64,000 bases of DNA, taken from contig CANQRU010000013.1 of the NCBI GenBank assembly GCA_947626395.1, forward strand, positions 1 to 64,000, read 5' to 3'. Made by a program: the position numbers and the translations under genes. Positions 476 through 5,873 of the stretch are shown in pieces. Within the stretch, counting starts at the first letter, position 1. Each line of letters begins with the position of its first letter. The notes under the pieces are model-generated. The model saw only the letters and a program-made list of their open reading frames with translations. It had not been told where the DNA came from and did no database searches. Source of the DNA: an uncultured Lachnospiraceae bacterium (GTDB taxonomy: Bacteria; Bacillota; Clostridia; Lachnospirales; Lachnospiraceae).

Positions 476-1747
476 TTACCCCGCAAAGCAGCTTCTGACG
501 ATTCCAATAATGGTCTCCTGCTGCTCCACCGTCATCTTATTATCACTCGGCAGGCACAGCCCTCTTTCAAAGATATCTGCACCTACATCGGCGACCGCCC
601 CGGTATCGATATACGCATTCGACCTGGCCCTTCCGCTCCCATTCCTCGTAATGAACGGATTCATCCGATACACCGGCTGCAGGTGCATCGGCTTCCAGAT
701 CGGACGTCCCTCCGCATTGTGCGCCGCCAGCTTCTCCAGGATCTCCGTCGGGCAGCTCTTTCCCTTCTCCGGCACATACAGCGAGTCTTTTTCCCCGCGT
801 ACCTGCCGGCACATGGCTTCGCGGTCGATCACAAGGCAGCTCAGCCAGAAGTTCGGCTCCATCTCTCCCTCTATGTACGGGTTCATCTTCACCGGAAGAT
901 CCTTAAAGCCTTCCTGATATCGCATGTAGATCCCTTTTTTCTGCCGGATGTGTTCTTCCAGATACCCGAACTGCCCACGCACGATCCCCGCGATGATATT
1001 GCTCATCCGGTAGTTGTACCCCAGTTCCTCATGCTGGTACCAGGGCGCCGCCTCACGGCTCTGCGTGGACCATTTCCGGGCTTTGTCCGCCGCTTCCTTA
1101 TCGTCGGTCAGTAGCATTCCGCCGGAACTTCCGGTGATGATCTTATTGCCATTGAAAGAGATTACGTTATAGCTTCCGAAATTTCCGGTCTGGACGCCCT
1201 TATAAGTCGCGCCTAAGGATTCCGCCGCATCCTCGACCAGAAGCGCGCCGTGAGCCTTGCAGACGGTACGGATATCGTCCAGCTTCGCCGGCGTCCCATA
1301 CAGATTGGCCAGAACCACCAGCTTCGCGTCCGGATAGATCTCAAAGGCCTTTTCCAAAGCCAGGGGATCCATATTCCAGGTCTCGTATTCCGAATCGATG
1401 AATACAGCCTCGCCGCCCTCATAGGCCACCGGATTCACCGTGGCGTCGAAGGTCATGTCCGAGCAGAACACCTTACGCCCTTCCAGGCTCCCATGTCCCG
1501 GCTCCGGCTGTCCATACAGGCGCTCTCCCGCCAGTTTCACCGCCAGATGAAGAGCCGCGGTACCGCTGGACAATGCCACGGCGCTGCCGCAGCCTATGTA
1601 CTCCCTTGCCAGCTTCTCCAGTTCCGTCAGGTTCTCCCCCACGGTGCTGACCCAGTTCTTCTCGATGGCTTCTGTTACATATTTCAGTTCATCCCCGTGC
1701 ATGGTTGGGGACGAAAGCCACACCTTTTCCCTGAATGATTCCGTCAT
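476..1747 (-). CDS. DegT/DnrJ/EryC1/StrS-type PLP aminotransferase, UDP-4-keto-sugar aminotransferase (PglE-like)
   Basis: A 423-residue sugar aminotransferase expected to transfer an amino group from glutamate to a UDP-4-keto-6-deoxy-sugar, giving UDP-4-amino-4,6-dideoxy-GlcNAc, the precursor of bacillosamine-type sugars. The fold-type I pattern is present: ALSSGTAALHLA near the N-terminus, VEDAAESLGA for the cofactor-contacting Asp, and FNGNKIITGSSGGM with the Schiff-base Lys at about residue 202. I chose the ATG at 1747: AAGAGGA lies 6 bases upstream, whereas an ATG two codons earlier abuts the Shine-Dalgarno. The gene begins 11 bases after the 4,6-dehydratase stop, so substrate and product match the neighbour. 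No acetyltransferase or glycosyltransferase follows; the operon stops here, facing the Rpn-like gene. Confidence 0.85.
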   Translation of the reverse strand: MTESFREKVWLSSPTMHGDELKYVTEAIEKNWVSTVGENLTELEKLAREYIGCGSAVALSSGTAALHLAVKLAGERLYGQPEPGHGSLEGRKVFCSDMTFDATVNPVAYEGGEAVFIDSEYETWNMDPLALEKAFEIYPDAKLVVLANLYGTPAKLDDIRTVCKAHGALLVEDAAESLGATYKGVQTGNFGSYNVISFNGNKIITGSSGGMLLTDDKEAADKARKWSTQSREAAPWYQHEELGYNYRMSNIIAGIVRGQFGYLEEHIRQKKGIYMRYQEGFKDLPVKMNPYIEGEMEPNFWLSCLVIDREAMCRQVRGEKDSLYVPEKGKSCPTEILEKLAAHNAEGRPIWKPMHLQPVYRMNPFITRNGSGRARSNAYIDTGAVADVGADIFERGLCLPSDNKMTVEQQETIIGIVRSCFAG

Positions 1748-1758
1748 ATTCATTCCTC

Positions 1759-3627
1759 TTATCCCTGCGGCTGGTACGTCGGCACCATCTCTTTGACCAG
1801 TACCTTCACCTGTTCTGTATCCTGGTTCGCCACCTCATACAGGCGCGCCAGGTCCTTCTCCAGCTTCTCCGCGTCAAACTCGATCGGCCTGCCAATATGG
1901 ATCAGCTGGTTCGGCGTATCCTGCAGCCCCTCTTCTCCCATCAGCAGTTCCTCATACAGCTTCTCCCCGGGACGCAGCCCCGTGAACTCGATCGGTATAT
2001 CCACATATGGCTCATAACCGGACAGCCGGATCAGGTTCTCCGCCAGATCCAGTATCTTCACCGGTTTCCCCATATCCAGCACGAAGATCTCTCCGCCTTT
2101 CGCGTACGCCCCGGCCTGCAGCACCAGACTCACCGCCTCCGGGATCGTCATGAAATACCTTATGATATCCGGGTGCGTCACCGTCACCGGCCCGCCCGCC
2201 TCGATCTGCTTCTTGAACAGTGGAATGACAGAGCCGTTGCTTCCCAACACATTCCCGAACCTTACCGCCACGAAGTCCGTCTCAGATCGGGCATCCATCA
2301 TCTGGACGACCATCTCGCAAAGCCTCTTGCTGGCTCCCATGATGTTCGTCGGGTTCACTGCCTTATCCGTGCTGATCAGCACAAACCGTTTCGTCCCATA
2401 TTTATCCGCCGCTTTCGCGGTCTTATAGGTACCGAAGACATTGTTCTTGATCGCCTCGCACGGACTGTCCTCCATCAGCGGCACATGCTTGTGCGCCGCT
2501 GCATGATACACGATATCCGGCCTGTATTTCGCGAACACACTCTCCATCCGGTGTGTATTTCTCACCGACCCAATCAGAACTACCAGATCCAGTTCCGGAT
2601 GGCTCTCCTTCAGCTCCTGCTGGATATCGTAGGCGTTGTTCTCATACACATCAAAAATGATCAGCCGCTTAGGGTTATGTCCTGCGATCTGCCTGCAAAG
2701 CTCACTCCCGATGGATCCGCCGCCCCCGGTGACCAGTATCGTCTTCCCGCTCACATATCCGATGATCTCATCCAGATCCACACGGATCGGCTCCCGCCCC
2801 AGCAGGTCCTCGATCTGCACTTCACGCAGCTTTGACACGCTGACCTCATCATTCAGCAGCTGGTAGATCCCCGGAAGGATCTTCACCCTGCAGTCTGTCT
2901 TCTGGCAGATGTCGATGATGTCTTTCCGGTCCTGGGCCGGCGCCGCGGGCATCGCGATGTAGATCTCATCCACCCGGTACTTCTCGGCCAGCTTCGGGAT
3001 ATCGTTCCGGTTCCCTTCGATGGGCACACCGTTTAAGATCTTTCCGATCTTATTCTTATCGTCGTCCACGAAGCAGACGACCGTATCATTCACAAATGAA
3101 CTGGTATGTATTTCTTTCAGGATCACGGTACCGGAAGTGCCGGCGCCGACGATCATGATCCTCTTTCCATTTTTCCCGCGTCGGCCGGACCCGAACAGCG
3201 ATACCCAGATCCGGTAGGATAGGCGCACAGCCAGCGCCATCCCGCACAGCACCACGAAGGAGATCAAATAGTAACTCCTTGGCACCGAGAACTGCAGGAG
3301 CATCATCCCGCCGGTCTGCAGAAGCGCCGCGATACCGCATGTCCCGACGATATTGAGCGCCTCCCGCACCCCGGCGGCGCTCCACACGATGTCGTACATT
3401 TTCCGGAACAAAAAAACAGCCAGCGTACCGGTGATGTACGTTGGCAGGTACCGTATGATTACAGATTTGAATTCCGGCGGCACAGCCGCCCAGCTCAGAT
3501 CGAACCGGACGATGAGTCCCAGGAATGCGGACAGGCAGATGATCGCGGTGTCGATCAAGAGAAGTCCAATCATCTGCACCCATTTATTTTTTGGAATATG
3601 TCTTTCGATGAAACCGTTATCTTTCAT
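1759..3627 (-). CDS. Membrane-bound UDP-N-acetylglucosamine 4,6-dehydratase, CapD/EpsC/PglF family
   Basis: A 622-residue nucleoside-diphosphate-sugar epimerase/dehydratase of the long, membrane-anchored type. The N-terminal quarter holds about four hydrophobic segments (residues ~17-125). A CoA-binding-like Rossmann domain with VGAGTSGT follows, then the catalytic SDR domain starting TGGGGSIGSE at ~300. The active-site block STDKAVNPTNIMGASKR at ~419-435 has the T-D-K triad and a Met in place of the usual YxxxK Tyr, as known for PglF/WbpM-type 4,6-dehydratases. It would convert UDP-GlcNAc to the UDP-4-keto-6-deoxy sugar used by the next gene. AAGGAA lies about 10 bases before the ATG. It follows the second NusG-like gene after 27 bases. 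Confidence 0.92.
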   Translation of the reverse strand: MKDNGFIERHIPKNKWVQMIGLLLIDTAIICLSAFLGLIVRFDLSWAAVPPEFKSVIIRYLPTYITGTLAVFLFRKMYDIVWSAAGVREALNIVGTCGIAALLQTGGMMLLQFSVPRSYYLISFVVLCGMALAVRLSYRIWVSLFGSGRRGKNGKRIMIVGAGTSGTVILKEIHTSSFVNDTVVCFVDDDKNKIGKILNGVPIEGNRNDIPKLAEKYRVDEIYIAMPAAPAQDRKDIIDICQKTDCRVKILPGIYQLLNDEVSVSKLREVQIEDLLGREPIRVDLDEIIGYVSGKTILVTGGGGSIGSELCRQIAGHNPKRLIIFDVYENNAYDIQQELKESHPELDLVVLIGSVRNTHRMESVFAKYRPDIVYHAAAHKHVPLMEDSPCEAIKNNVFGTYKTAKAADKYGTKRFVLISTDKAVNPTNIMGASKRLCEMVVQMMDARSETDFVAVRFGNVLGSNGSVIPLFKKQIEAGGPVTVTHPDIIRYFMTIPEAVSLVLQAGAYAKGGEIFVLDMGKPVKILDLAENLIRLSGYEPYVDIPIEFTGLRPGEKLYEELLMGEEGLQDTPNQLIHIGRPIEFDAEKLEKDLARLYEVANQDTEQVKVLVKEMVPTYQPQG

Positions 3628-3654: not shown

Positions 3655-4224
3655 CTATCCGATCGCCCTCATTGGCTCTTCCGCTCTCACGCCGAGCCCC
3701 TCATAGATCATCCCCATATCTTCATCCAGCAGTATCCCCAGGCTGAAACTTGCATCTTCTCCCAGAAACCTGTGTTTCGCGATCGCGTAGCGCTTCTTAA
3801 ACTGATATCTCTCCACCGATCCGCCGAAGGCTTCCAGCGGTCCGGTAATCTCTGTAATTATCCCATCCGACTTCTTCACATGCGAAAGCCGCACGATATG
3901 GTCTTCCCCGGAAATCTTCTCCAGGAATTCCGCGTCCTCTTTCATTAACGGCAGCATGTTCATTTCGCTGGAGGCGGCTAGTCTCGACATGGCAGGGATC
4001 CGTTCCATCCTTCGGAAAAGCGGCTCCGTCTCCCGGCAGGTAATGAATACGCATCCGGGAAGCAGCGGTTCGATATGAAGAACATTATGCTGCTGTTTTC
4101 TCCAGATCCGTTCCTGTCCAATGGTGAAGCACTTATGGTACATGCCGGGCGGAACGGTCCGATGGATCTCACGGACCAGTTCTTCCTCGCGGCCCGTCCA
4201 GGTTTTCATCATATACCAGAGCAT
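3655..4224 (-). CDS. NusG N-terminal-domain protein without KOW (LoaP/UpxY-like)
   Basis: A 189-residue protein beginning MLWYMMKTWTGREEELV, the classic start of the NusG N-terminal (NGN) domain that binds RNA polymerase. PLLPGCVFI and ERIPAMSRL match the corresponding blocks of the neighbouring NusG-like protein. The C-terminal KOW domain seen in that paralogue (GDQVTVMSGDLAGMCG) is absent; the last ~50 residues read ILLDEDMGMIYEGLGV and stop. The start at 4224 is set by AGAGAGGAG eight bases upstream. It sits between the KOW-bearing paralogue and the dehydratase in one operon. NusG-like antiterminators of this sort (LoaP in Firmicutes, UpxY in Bacteroides) let polymerase read through long glycan or antibiotic operons. 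Loss of KOW could make this copy a competitor or partner; that is inference. Confidence 0.75.
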   Translation of the reverse strand: MLWYMMKTWTGREEELVREIHRTVPPGMYHKCFTIGQERIWRKQQHNVLHIEPLLPGCVFITCRETEPLFRRMERIPAMSRLAASSEMNMLPLMKEDAEFLEKISGEDHIVRLSHVKKSDGIITEITGPLEAFGGSVERYQFKKRYAIAKHRFLGEDASFSLGILLDEDMGMIYEGLGVRAEEPMRAIG

Positions 4225-4346
4225 ATCCGCGTCTCCTCTCTGCGTCGCCATCATTGCCGGCTTTCACATCTTCAGCTCTGCATTTCCGGCTTCTTTTGCC
4301 TTATGTTTTTCGCATTCGGCTTCCTGTCTTTTCCTGCTGCCCTTCT

Positions 4347-5126
4347 CTATTCCAGCTTCTTCACATCTCCGGCCTCGACTTCGATATCGAGCTGCTGCCC
4401 CAGGAAATGGATATTCAGTCTCACCGTGTGTTTCTTCGTCTTGCTGACGGTTCCGCACATTCCGGCGAGATCGCCGCTCATCACCGTCACCTGATCGCCG
4501 GGCAGGAATTGCTGCTGAATTTCCGGCGTCTTCTCAGGGGCGCTTGCCTGGACCTGGTAGCGCTCCGGCACCGCGATCGGCGCCTCCACCTTGCCGTAGC
4601 GTAGCTGCCTGCGGATGTCTTCCGGTAAAATGATCCCCAGCGGGATCTGTTTCTCGCTCTCTGCCAGGCTCAGCCGGATAACGGCGCTCCGCCTTCGGTA
4701 GTTATATCGAACGACCTGTTTCAGACACGATCTAAGCGGCCCCGCCGTCTGGCGGACCTGGCCGTGACCGTCGGTAGACAGATAAGACAGCCCGATCACA
4801 TGACTCTCGTTCATGATCTGCTTAAGGAACGCCGCTTCCTCCGGCTCCAGCGCAAGGAAATACAGATTATCTCCCGCCATAAGCTTCGACATGGCCGGTA
4901 CCCGTTTCAGTTCCAGATACAGCGCGTCCGGCTGCTCCGCAGTGATAAAGACATATCCCGGAAATGCTCTCGCCACATGGACGAACGCTCCCTCATGACG
5001 CCGCCAGAGCTGTTCGCAATACAATACGAAGCACTCGCCGTACAGATCCGAGGGGAGCATCTTCCGAATCATCGTCACCAGTTTCTCCTCCTCGCCGGTC
5101 ATTGTCTGAAGCACATACCAGTTCAT
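4347..5126 (-). CDS. loaP: LoaP-like NusG-family transcription antiterminator with NGN and KOW domains
   Basis: 259 residues. The NGN domain covers ~1-110 (MNWYVLQTMTGEEEKLV, ARAFPGYVFI, KRVPAMSKLM). A middle linker follows, then a KOW domain at ~206-255 (FLPGDQVTVMSGDLAGMCGTV). It is not the housekeeping NusG: the sequence is diverged, and it is the first gene of a glycan operon rather than next to secE/rplK. Specialised NusG proteins of the LoaP group act on the operon that encodes them through an RNA element in the 5' leader. The ATG at 5126 has GGAGA seven bases upstream. A leader of about 270 bases separates it from the invertible promoter segment. The gene symbol is used by family analogy. 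Confidence 0.8.
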   Translation of the reverse strand: MNWYVLQTMTGEEEKLVTMIRKMLPSDLYGECFVLYCEQLWRRHEGAFVHVARAFPGYVFITAEQPDALYLELKRVPAMSKLMAGDNLYFLALEPEEAAFLKQIMNESHVIGLSYLSTDGHGQVRQTAGPLRSCLKQVVRYNYRRRSAVIRLSLAESEKQIPLGIILPEDIRRQLRYGKVEAPIAVPERYQVQASAPEKTPEIQQQFLPGDQVTVMSGDLAGMCGTVSKTKKHTVRLNIHFLGQQLDIEVEAGDVKKLE

Positions 5127-5397
5127 ATGGTTTTCTCCATTTCCCCGGGTCGGAGAGGCTTAACTGGCATGAAAATGGCATAGCTCCGCCATCCCGGCTG
5201 ATCCCCTGGGGGATCCGGGAAGTATATGCTCCGCCATTCCGGGCCGCGCGCGGCGAACCGGACTGTGAAATGCACTGGCATTCCTGCCGCCGATATAACC
5301 CCATTCCGGGAAATGCAACCTCAGGCTCGCGATCTCCCGTCCCGGTTTTGTACAGATCCGGCCAACACTAAATACAGTGTCTGCCGGGCGTTTAGGG
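5127..5397 (-). promoter_or_regulatory. Untranslated leader of the glycan operon, possible antiterminator target
   Basis: About 270 bases with no credible gene lie between the inverted-repeat segment and the first antiterminator gene. Read as leader RNA, it contains a stem of GATCCC with GGGATC (5199-5214) and a short ACAC/GTGT hairpin near 5367-5382. It also has three related elements: CCGGRATGGCGGAGC twice (complements of 5183-5197 and 5228-5242) and a shorter CCCGGAATGGGG (complement of 5299-5310). LoaP proteins are known to need a hairpin in such a leader; which element would serve is unknown. Confidence 0.55.
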
Positions 5398-5432
5398 TCG
5401 AGTTCAACACAATATAGGATTGAGTTGAACTC
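5398..5432 (+). repeat. Left 35-bp inverted repeat of the invertible segment
   Basis: It matches the reverse complement of 5623-5657 at 34 of 35 positions (C at 5410 differs). The repeat is itself nearly palindromic: outer arms GAGTTCAAC and GTTGAACTC, the symmetry continuing through CAAT/ATTG to a short asymmetric core ATAGG. Paired protein-binding arms around a short directional core are the layout of a tyrosine-recombinase site. Confidence 0.93.
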
Positions 5433-5579
5433 AAAACGGAGGGTTGGAGCGGTGCCGGCGCAATAAAAAAGAGGATTTTTGTCTGAACAGAAAGGAATCG
5501 CTGACAAATTATCGAAAATTAATAATTTTCATTGCTTTTACTAAAGAAAAGATTAACTTTTTTCCCAAAAGAAAGGGAC

Positions 5580-5608
5580 TTGAATTATCCGGGAAAGCGT
5601 GCTATCAT
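5580..5608 (+). promoter_or_regulatory. SigmaA promoter inside the invertible segment, directed rightward (OFF)
   Basis: TTGAAT at 5580-5585, a 17-base spacer and TATCAT at 5603-5608; transcription would start near 5615. It reads away from the glycan operon. I found no comparably good promoter on the other strand within the segment or in the leader. Confidence 0.75.
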
Positions 5609-5618
5609 AATAAAGCGT

Positions 5619-5663
5619 AATCGAGTTCAACTCAATCCTATATTTTGTTGAACTCGATTTTTT
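5619..5663 (+). terminator. Terminator-like hairpin formed by the right inverted repeat
   Basis: Arms AATCGAGTTCAAC and GTTGAACTCGATT (13 bp) with a 15-base loop, followed by six T (5658-5663). It lies within the first 50 bases of the transcript from the promoter at 5580-5608. The outer flank of the left repeat has no T-run (GACCCTAAACG on the operon strand), so after inversion the same hairpin would not be followed by a U-tract. Confidence 0.65.
5623..5657 (-). repeat. Right 35-bp inverted repeat of the invertible segment
   Basis: Reverse-complement partner of 5398-5432 with one mismatch. Its outer arms extend to an 11-bp perfect match, TCGAGTTCAAC and GTTGAACTCGA. Confidence 0.93.
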
Positions 5664-5704: not shown

Positions 5705-5873
5705 ATTCCGGCCAACGCCGCCGTCCGATCCGTTTTCGCAGACTGGTACAATGCGGAGACTCGCCGGTCTCTTTTACATATACTATATATTTTACATATA
5801 CTATACAAATGACCGCTGCACCCGTCCAAAAGTACAGCGGCCTGTAATTTTTCCGTCATTCTGTCCTGCAGAA
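5705..5873. other. Intergenic stretch with an 18-bp direct repeat
   Basis: No gene is supported. TTTTACATATACTATA occurs at 5772-5787 and again at 5790-5805 (period 18). A hairpin with arms CCGCTG and CAGCGG follows at about 5813-5841 and is trailed by a short T-run on the + strand. Confidence 0.5.

Follow-up and report, generated by a model that had tools for sequence, protein, structure and literature searches.

Two long inverted repeats in front of a glycan operon of an uncultured Lachnospiraceae bacterium raise the question of whether the short segment between them is an invertible promoter and, if so, in which orientation it was captured. The DNA analyzed here (64,000 bases, referred to as the window) comprises bases 1–64,000 of contig 13 of a 3.46-Mb draft genome in 87 contigs (G000). 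A repeat search placed the 35-nt repeats at 5398–5432 and 5623–5657, where they are complementary at 34 of 35 positions (97%) with 190 nt between them, exactly at the coordinates of the original prediction; no such pair is expected by chance (0 matches expected from 100 dinucleotide shuffles). As had also been predicted, each 35-bp arm is a near-palindrome around a short core, with a layout of 14 bp, 5 nt and 14 bp (GAGTTCAACACAAT-ATAGG-ATTGAGTTGAACTC). The copy nearest the operon (5398..5432) has its core ATAGG at 5414–5418 and shares its geometry with recombinase-carrying relatives; the inverted copy on the ytfJ side (5623..5657) has the core CCTAT at 5637–5641. The presumed invertible segment itself (190 bp, 5433..5622) is gene-free. 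Among the listed ORFs only 5160–5507 runs across the left site, and this TTG-started frame is unsupported. As a control, the 3 kb in front of each gene were scanned for palindromic sites in inverted pairs: of 46 window genes, this operon's were the only ones with such a pair, and none was found for 80 other genes of G000.

The top-scoring promoter within the segment is TTGAAT-17-TATCAT with a TG extension (TTGAAT-17-TGcTATCAT, 5580..5608, plus strand), which is directed away from the operon and thus corresponds to an OFF state. Upstream of it lies the conserved block AAGAAAAGATTAA (5544..5556, plus strand). A terminator-like hairpin between ytfJ and the switch (5811..5842, minus strand) could shield the operon against read-through; it comes from a consensus scan only, in which 2 hairpins were found and 1.2 were expected.

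The operon behind the repeats is encoded on the minus strand and starts with two NusG-family genes in tandem. The antiterminator gene loaP1 (4347..5126; PF02357) scores narrowly above the cut-off of the LoaP model (NF033641, 125.5 bits vs. 125) and heads a biosynthetic operon, which places the locus among the LoaP operons; with the UpxY model the same gene reaches 35.2 bits against a cut-off of 100 and is not assigned to that class. The second and more divergent NusG paralog, loaP2 (3655..4254), matches PF02357 with 26.2 bits and NF033641 with 78.7 bits, which is under the cut-off. Then follow the genes for a membrane-type, CapD/PglF-like nucleotide-sugar dehydratase (1759..3627; PF02719, 413 bits) and a DegT-family, LegC-like aminotransferase (476..1753; PF01041, 247 bits; LegC model 285.6 bits, under the cut-off). 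The domain matches therefore agree with the NusG-like antiterminators and the glycan operon that had been read from the sequence before. The operon is cut by the contig start beyond the aminotransferase gene, and at this break positions 54–377 of the window hold an ORF of coiled-coil-like tandem repeats (SEKQQLTSENQQL...).

The site is present in 10 of the 26 genomes of the genus. No further copy of the 35-bp site, for which the original prediction had left room, was found in the rest of the 3.46-Mb draft of G000, and none was found in IMG/VR. The related genome G010 has the same short element in the same place and orientation, with a spacer 91% alike over 112 bp. Five long elements, in G013:C93, G017:C3, G017:C50, G018:C165, and G021:C34, have their sites ≈750–880 bp apart and enclose the gene for a 192-aa tyrosine recombinase, then the AAGAAAAGATTAA block and, a short way inside one of the sites, the same promoter. 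The block is shared by the window with the long elements of all four genomes, and the promoter is kept in G010 as well as in the long elements. As the window segment corresponds by homology to that end of the long forms which holds the promoter (75% over 68 bp for G017:C3), the window element reads as a recombinase-less version of them. The tyrosine recombinase gene that relatives carry between sites of this kind also supports the earlier assignment of the repeats to this recombinase type.

Tandem LoaP genes follow directly after four of the five long elements. Recombinase and promoter point toward LoaP (ON) in G017:C3 and G017:C50 and away from it (OFF) in G013:C93 and G018:C165; the promoter is also directed away from LoaP in the short elements of G000 and G010. 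Type-A elements with a recombinase were in addition seen beside tpiA and not LoaP (L050:15754-16441 in G020:C17 and L052:51-927 in G021:C34), one of them with a single recognizable site, so this element family can occupy other loci.

Using LoaP1 as the query, we identified LoaP genes in 19 of the genus's 26 genomes. In 37 tandem-LoaP operons the available upstream sequence was 1.3 kb or longer, and paired inverted palindromic sites were located upstream of 35 of them (33 in the first pass and 2 on closer reading); the remaining two have one site each and are truncated by the contig end. Single-LoaP operons are mixed, and several have no switch. The sites belong to several families. Family A (TTCAACACAAT-5-ATTGTGTTGAA), found in the window, goes with the small recombinase. 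Family B (TGTCGTAGAGT-5-ACTCTACGACA) has a ≈390-aa recombinase inside or occurs as 290–520-bp versions without a recombinase. Family C (TGTCGCTTAAC...GTTAAGCGACA; L226-L237, in G003, G006, G009, and G024) has a spacer of ≈180 bp and precedes the LoaP genes of more distantly related members of the genus, and family D (CAACATTTT-5-AAAATGTTG) has its promoter in common with type A. All four LoaP loci of G000 carry a switch, namely C13 (the window; A, OFF), C21 (B, OFF), C22 (D, OFF), and C4 (B, ON), and the genes downstream at C4, C21, and C22 include a sugar transferase, glycosyltransferases, a DegT aminotransferase and Polysacc_synt_2. Each of 37 scored elements, including the window, has a strong promoter that starts 69–96 bp from one end, and by its direction 29 elements are OFF and 8 are ON; G017:C50 was tallied as ON by its outward promoter, while the script scored it as ambiguous. 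The long recombinase-encoding form, the second and larger recombinase/site system, the switches at all LoaP loci of G000 and the conserved leader RNA described below all go beyond the original prediction.

The cores within a genome are all distinct. We do not take this as a sign of selection, because so many different cores exist that only ≈0.6 coincidences would be expected by our own estimate, and the observation alone is not significant. Outside the genus, where both sides of the loci and extended upstream stretches were surveyed, LoaP-linked switches of this kind were found only in G136 among 14 genomes with LoaP; G208 has one other inverted pair.

Two further type-B invertons with a recombinase are found in G000, at G000:C15 (L169:6281-16148) and G000:C9 (L170:1-8404), next to predicted proteins of 2561 and 2102 aa, with the promoter facing away. 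Other Lachnospiraceae genera (L106, L107, L108, L109, L112, L117, L119, and L129) have self-contained invertons with the recombinase family of the long type-A elements. Judged by eye, these carry an apparent sigma28/SigD promoter (TAAAGT-N-CCGATAT), not a sigmaA promoter, between the recombinase stop and the site, which hints at motility-linked switches.

The comparisons that bear on flipping rest on draft and metagenome-assembled genomes, and in two cases they catch a switch of a LoaP operon in both orientations. The flanks of the type-B switch in G000:C4 and G010:C91 are collinear over ≈9 kb, and the segment 8149–9593 of L167 is reversed at 89% identity. Likewise, the orthologous type-B switch of G012:C66 and G015:C45 is inverted exactly between the sites. 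The central five bases of type-B pairs match in inverted orientation in 31/31 pairs, though the cores vary by locus, and this is what strand exchange requires. Contig ends point in the same direction. On the orthologous ytfJ-side flank the contigs G012:C13, G013:C109, and G023:C75 stop exactly at the inner site edge, which is the break expected if both orientations coexist in the assembly graph. The contigs G015:C225, G012:C22, G023:C12, G020:C60, and G021:C34 start at a nearly fixed distance of 77–78 bases before the outer site edge, an offset that fits a k-mer fork there with k = 77 as the inferred value. Contig breaks of this kind can also stem from other repeats or strain variation. Orientation thus differs among the loci of the family, and two orthologous LoaP switches are inverted, whereas the relatives that resolve the window locus (G010 and CANPZE010000030.1) show it in a single orientation.

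In its main claim, an invertible promoter in the OFF orientation, the original prediction is supported by this comparison across relatives. From these comparisons we consider the site structure, the conserved promoter, the recombinase-encoding long forms, the presence of both orientations across the family and the exact inversion of two sister switches to be established. It is therefore very likely that 5398–5657 is a phase-variable promoter switch of the tandem-LoaP glycan operon, in which a small tyrosine recombinase inverts 190 bp and which is now OFF.

A search for the recombinase that might flip the window copy gave 19 PF00589 matches in G000, so the genome-wide look for recombinases advised earlier did yield a candidate: one of them, and only one, is near the type-A recombinases. 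This 191-aa protein (G000:C2:133783-134358; PF00589, 94 bits) is 67–71% identical to them and qualifies as a tyrosine recombinase by its R, K, HxxR, H, and Y residues, read from the alignment. Its gene has no flanking sites. The nearest relatives, in G011, G013, and G018, are also standalone and together make up a separate group. Perfect type-D sites are only found in G000, G011, and G018, all three with the standalone gene, and the protein may therefore serve type D, type A or both. We stop short of naming it the definite driver at the type-A site, since it tracks type-D sites at least as well as type A. G136, a genome from a different genus, combines a single standalone recombinase of the family with short type-A-like elements at two LoaP loci, where the same leader RNA is also present; this supports action in trans. 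On balance we lean toward the G000:C2 recombinase acting in trans on the window site. The two G136 elements (G136:C7, L284:1524-1780 and L285:1238-1494) are ≈33 kb apart and have identical sites and cores and near-identical spacers; the intervening DNA could be inverted or lost if the two recombined.

The missing internal recombinase could also be read in another way. The window element might be a recombinase-less remnant of a long element, locked OFF since its cognate recombinase is missing from the genome, and this would agree both with G000 having a standalone homolog only and no member of the in-element clade, and with the identical orientation in G010 and CANPZE010000030.1. We find such an orphaned switch unlikely. 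Both the sites and the promoter have been conserved intact, three relatives have a contig break at the site edge of this locus, and the standalone protein is close in sequence to the type-A recombinases; moreover, G136 likewise combines short elements with one standalone recombinase. A switch that can still invert remains our preferred reading.

The OFF assignment depends on which promoter in the segment counts. The outward promoter had been described as the one good promoter, and it is indeed the best, but a second, weaker match toward the operon is also present (TTGAGT-17-TATTAT, 5635..5607, minus strand, 9/12 matches). If this match drove transcription, the captured orientation would be ON, which we regard as very unlikely: its −35 sits in the repeat and is poorer in G010 (TTAAGT), where the outward promoter is kept or better (TTGAAA), the outward extended −10 promoter is conserved in A and D elements, and all 36 other scored elements have a strong outward promoter near one end, with an internal match nearly equal in score in G017:C50. 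Still less probable is a leftover or MITE-like derivative of a transposable element that no longer moves and has no regulatory role, which the terminal inverted repeats and, in G020 and G021, the recombinase-carrying relative at a different locus beside tpiA might suggest, since the element does not show the dispersed, transposon-like occurrence that the original prediction had named as evidence against itself (it is a single genome copy with no target duplications visible at its ends, and it does not classify as a transposon or MITE), its promoter and its position upstream of LoaP are conserved, and two other site families occupy the same position in sister operons.

Between the switch and loaP1 we identified a conserved leader RNA of 75 nt with a covarying hairpin (5280..5354, minus strand). 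The element is common to operons with type A and type B switches, where it is found between the LoaP-side site and LoaP1. Pairing is kept in 94.3% of cells compared with 88.4% in shuffles, and the covariation score is 0.352 against 0.242, a value reached by 0/500 shuffles (which ignore kinship); when slid, the score is at most 0.155. Rfam has no family for the leader or for the whole window. A short coding frame was ruled out as an explanation because indels shift the frame among relatives. LoaP of Bacillus velezensis requires a leader hairpin (PMC12691694), and this makes the 75-nt leader a natural candidate for LoaP recruitment, i.e., a putative recruitment signal.

We propose that a small tyrosine recombinase of FimB/FimE size, probably the standalone G000:C2 protein in trans, would pair the two 35-bp sites. 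Crossover in the identical core of the paired sites would then invert the 190-bp segment. As the segment lies now (OFF), its promoter should fire toward the 3′ end of ytfJ and not into the operon. In the ON orientation transcription would be expected to start ≈10 bp inside the operon-side site, giving a transcript in which the leader with the conserved RNA hairpin is followed by loaP1, loaP2 and the genes for the sugar dehydratase and the aminotransferase. LoaP may be recruited by binding to the leader RNA and keep RNA polymerase transcribing across the glycan operon; this would make the contrast between ON and OFF sharper and presumably alter the surface phenotype of the cell.

Capsule phase variation by promoter inversion in Bacteroides is the best-known case of such control and affects phage sensitivity, immune recognition and colonization; Mpi, the invertase of these capsule loci, is a serine recombinase. 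As in the UpxY capsule switches of Bacteroides, a small, probably invertible promoter here precedes a glycan operon led by specialized NusG paralog genes, and there are several switch loci per genome, most of them OFF. The differences are that the present system belongs to another phylum, has LoaP and not UpxY, with two NusG paralogs in tandem, and uses unrelated sites, a sigma-A type promoter and recombinases that are often inside the invertible segment. In the fim system of Escherichia coli, FimB and FimE are proteins of ≈190–200 aa consisting of the catalytic domain, and the promoter lies within a segment of a few hundred bp. The small catalytic-domain recombinase and the promoter in a short segment are thus seen in both, whereas the sequence similarity is weak (tyrosine-type DNA invertase NF007371, 38 bits vs. 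a cut-off of 222) and the long form described here has its recombinase gene between the sites.

According to the main text of the hCom2 survey, UpxY genes are enriched as regulatable genes beside Bacteroidota invertons, and clostridial invertons (group 139, invertase group 35) have tyrosine-type recombinases and flip in culture (PMC11892184). By that main-text description, group 139 resembles the present elements in its occurrence in Clostridia, the nearby recombinase and, in its examples, repeats on the 25-bp scale with ≈200-bp spacers; the same main text makes no mention of LoaP or clostridial capsule operons (PMC11892184). In Eggerthella lenta, megabase inversions rearrange capsule clusters relative to loaP (PMC13174815). 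DNA inversion near a LoaP gene, which in E. lenta changes capsule gene expression, would be common to both cases, yet there whole clusters are moved and here it would be a promoter segment of 190 bp (PMC13174815). B. velezensis likewise has a LoaP-class NusG paralog and a leader RNA hairpin before a long biosynthetic operon, with a different hairpin sequence, and an invertible promoter is not described there (PMC12691694). Within the open-licence literature we found no description of LoaP operons under small invertible promoters.

The switch appears to work like the UpxY capsule switches of Bacteroides and is built from unrelated parts. That Lachnospiraceae have this architecture with other components suggests that bet-hedging with surface glycans evolved convergently in one of the major groups of gut Firmicutes. 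For the genus as a whole, it is probable that nearly all glycan operons with a LoaP pair are separately phase-variable through invertible promoters of their own, which would involve several unrelated recombinase/site systems with locus-specific cores that do not cross-react and leave most loci OFF and few ON per genome, giving Firmicutes a convergent equivalent of the capsule-switching repertoire in Bacteroides. The analysis ties LoaP antitermination to DNA inversion and yields a candidate leader RNA for LoaP together with recombinase/site pairs whose cores are distinct, and how a commensal restricts itself to one or a few glycans becomes testable in a Gram-positive.
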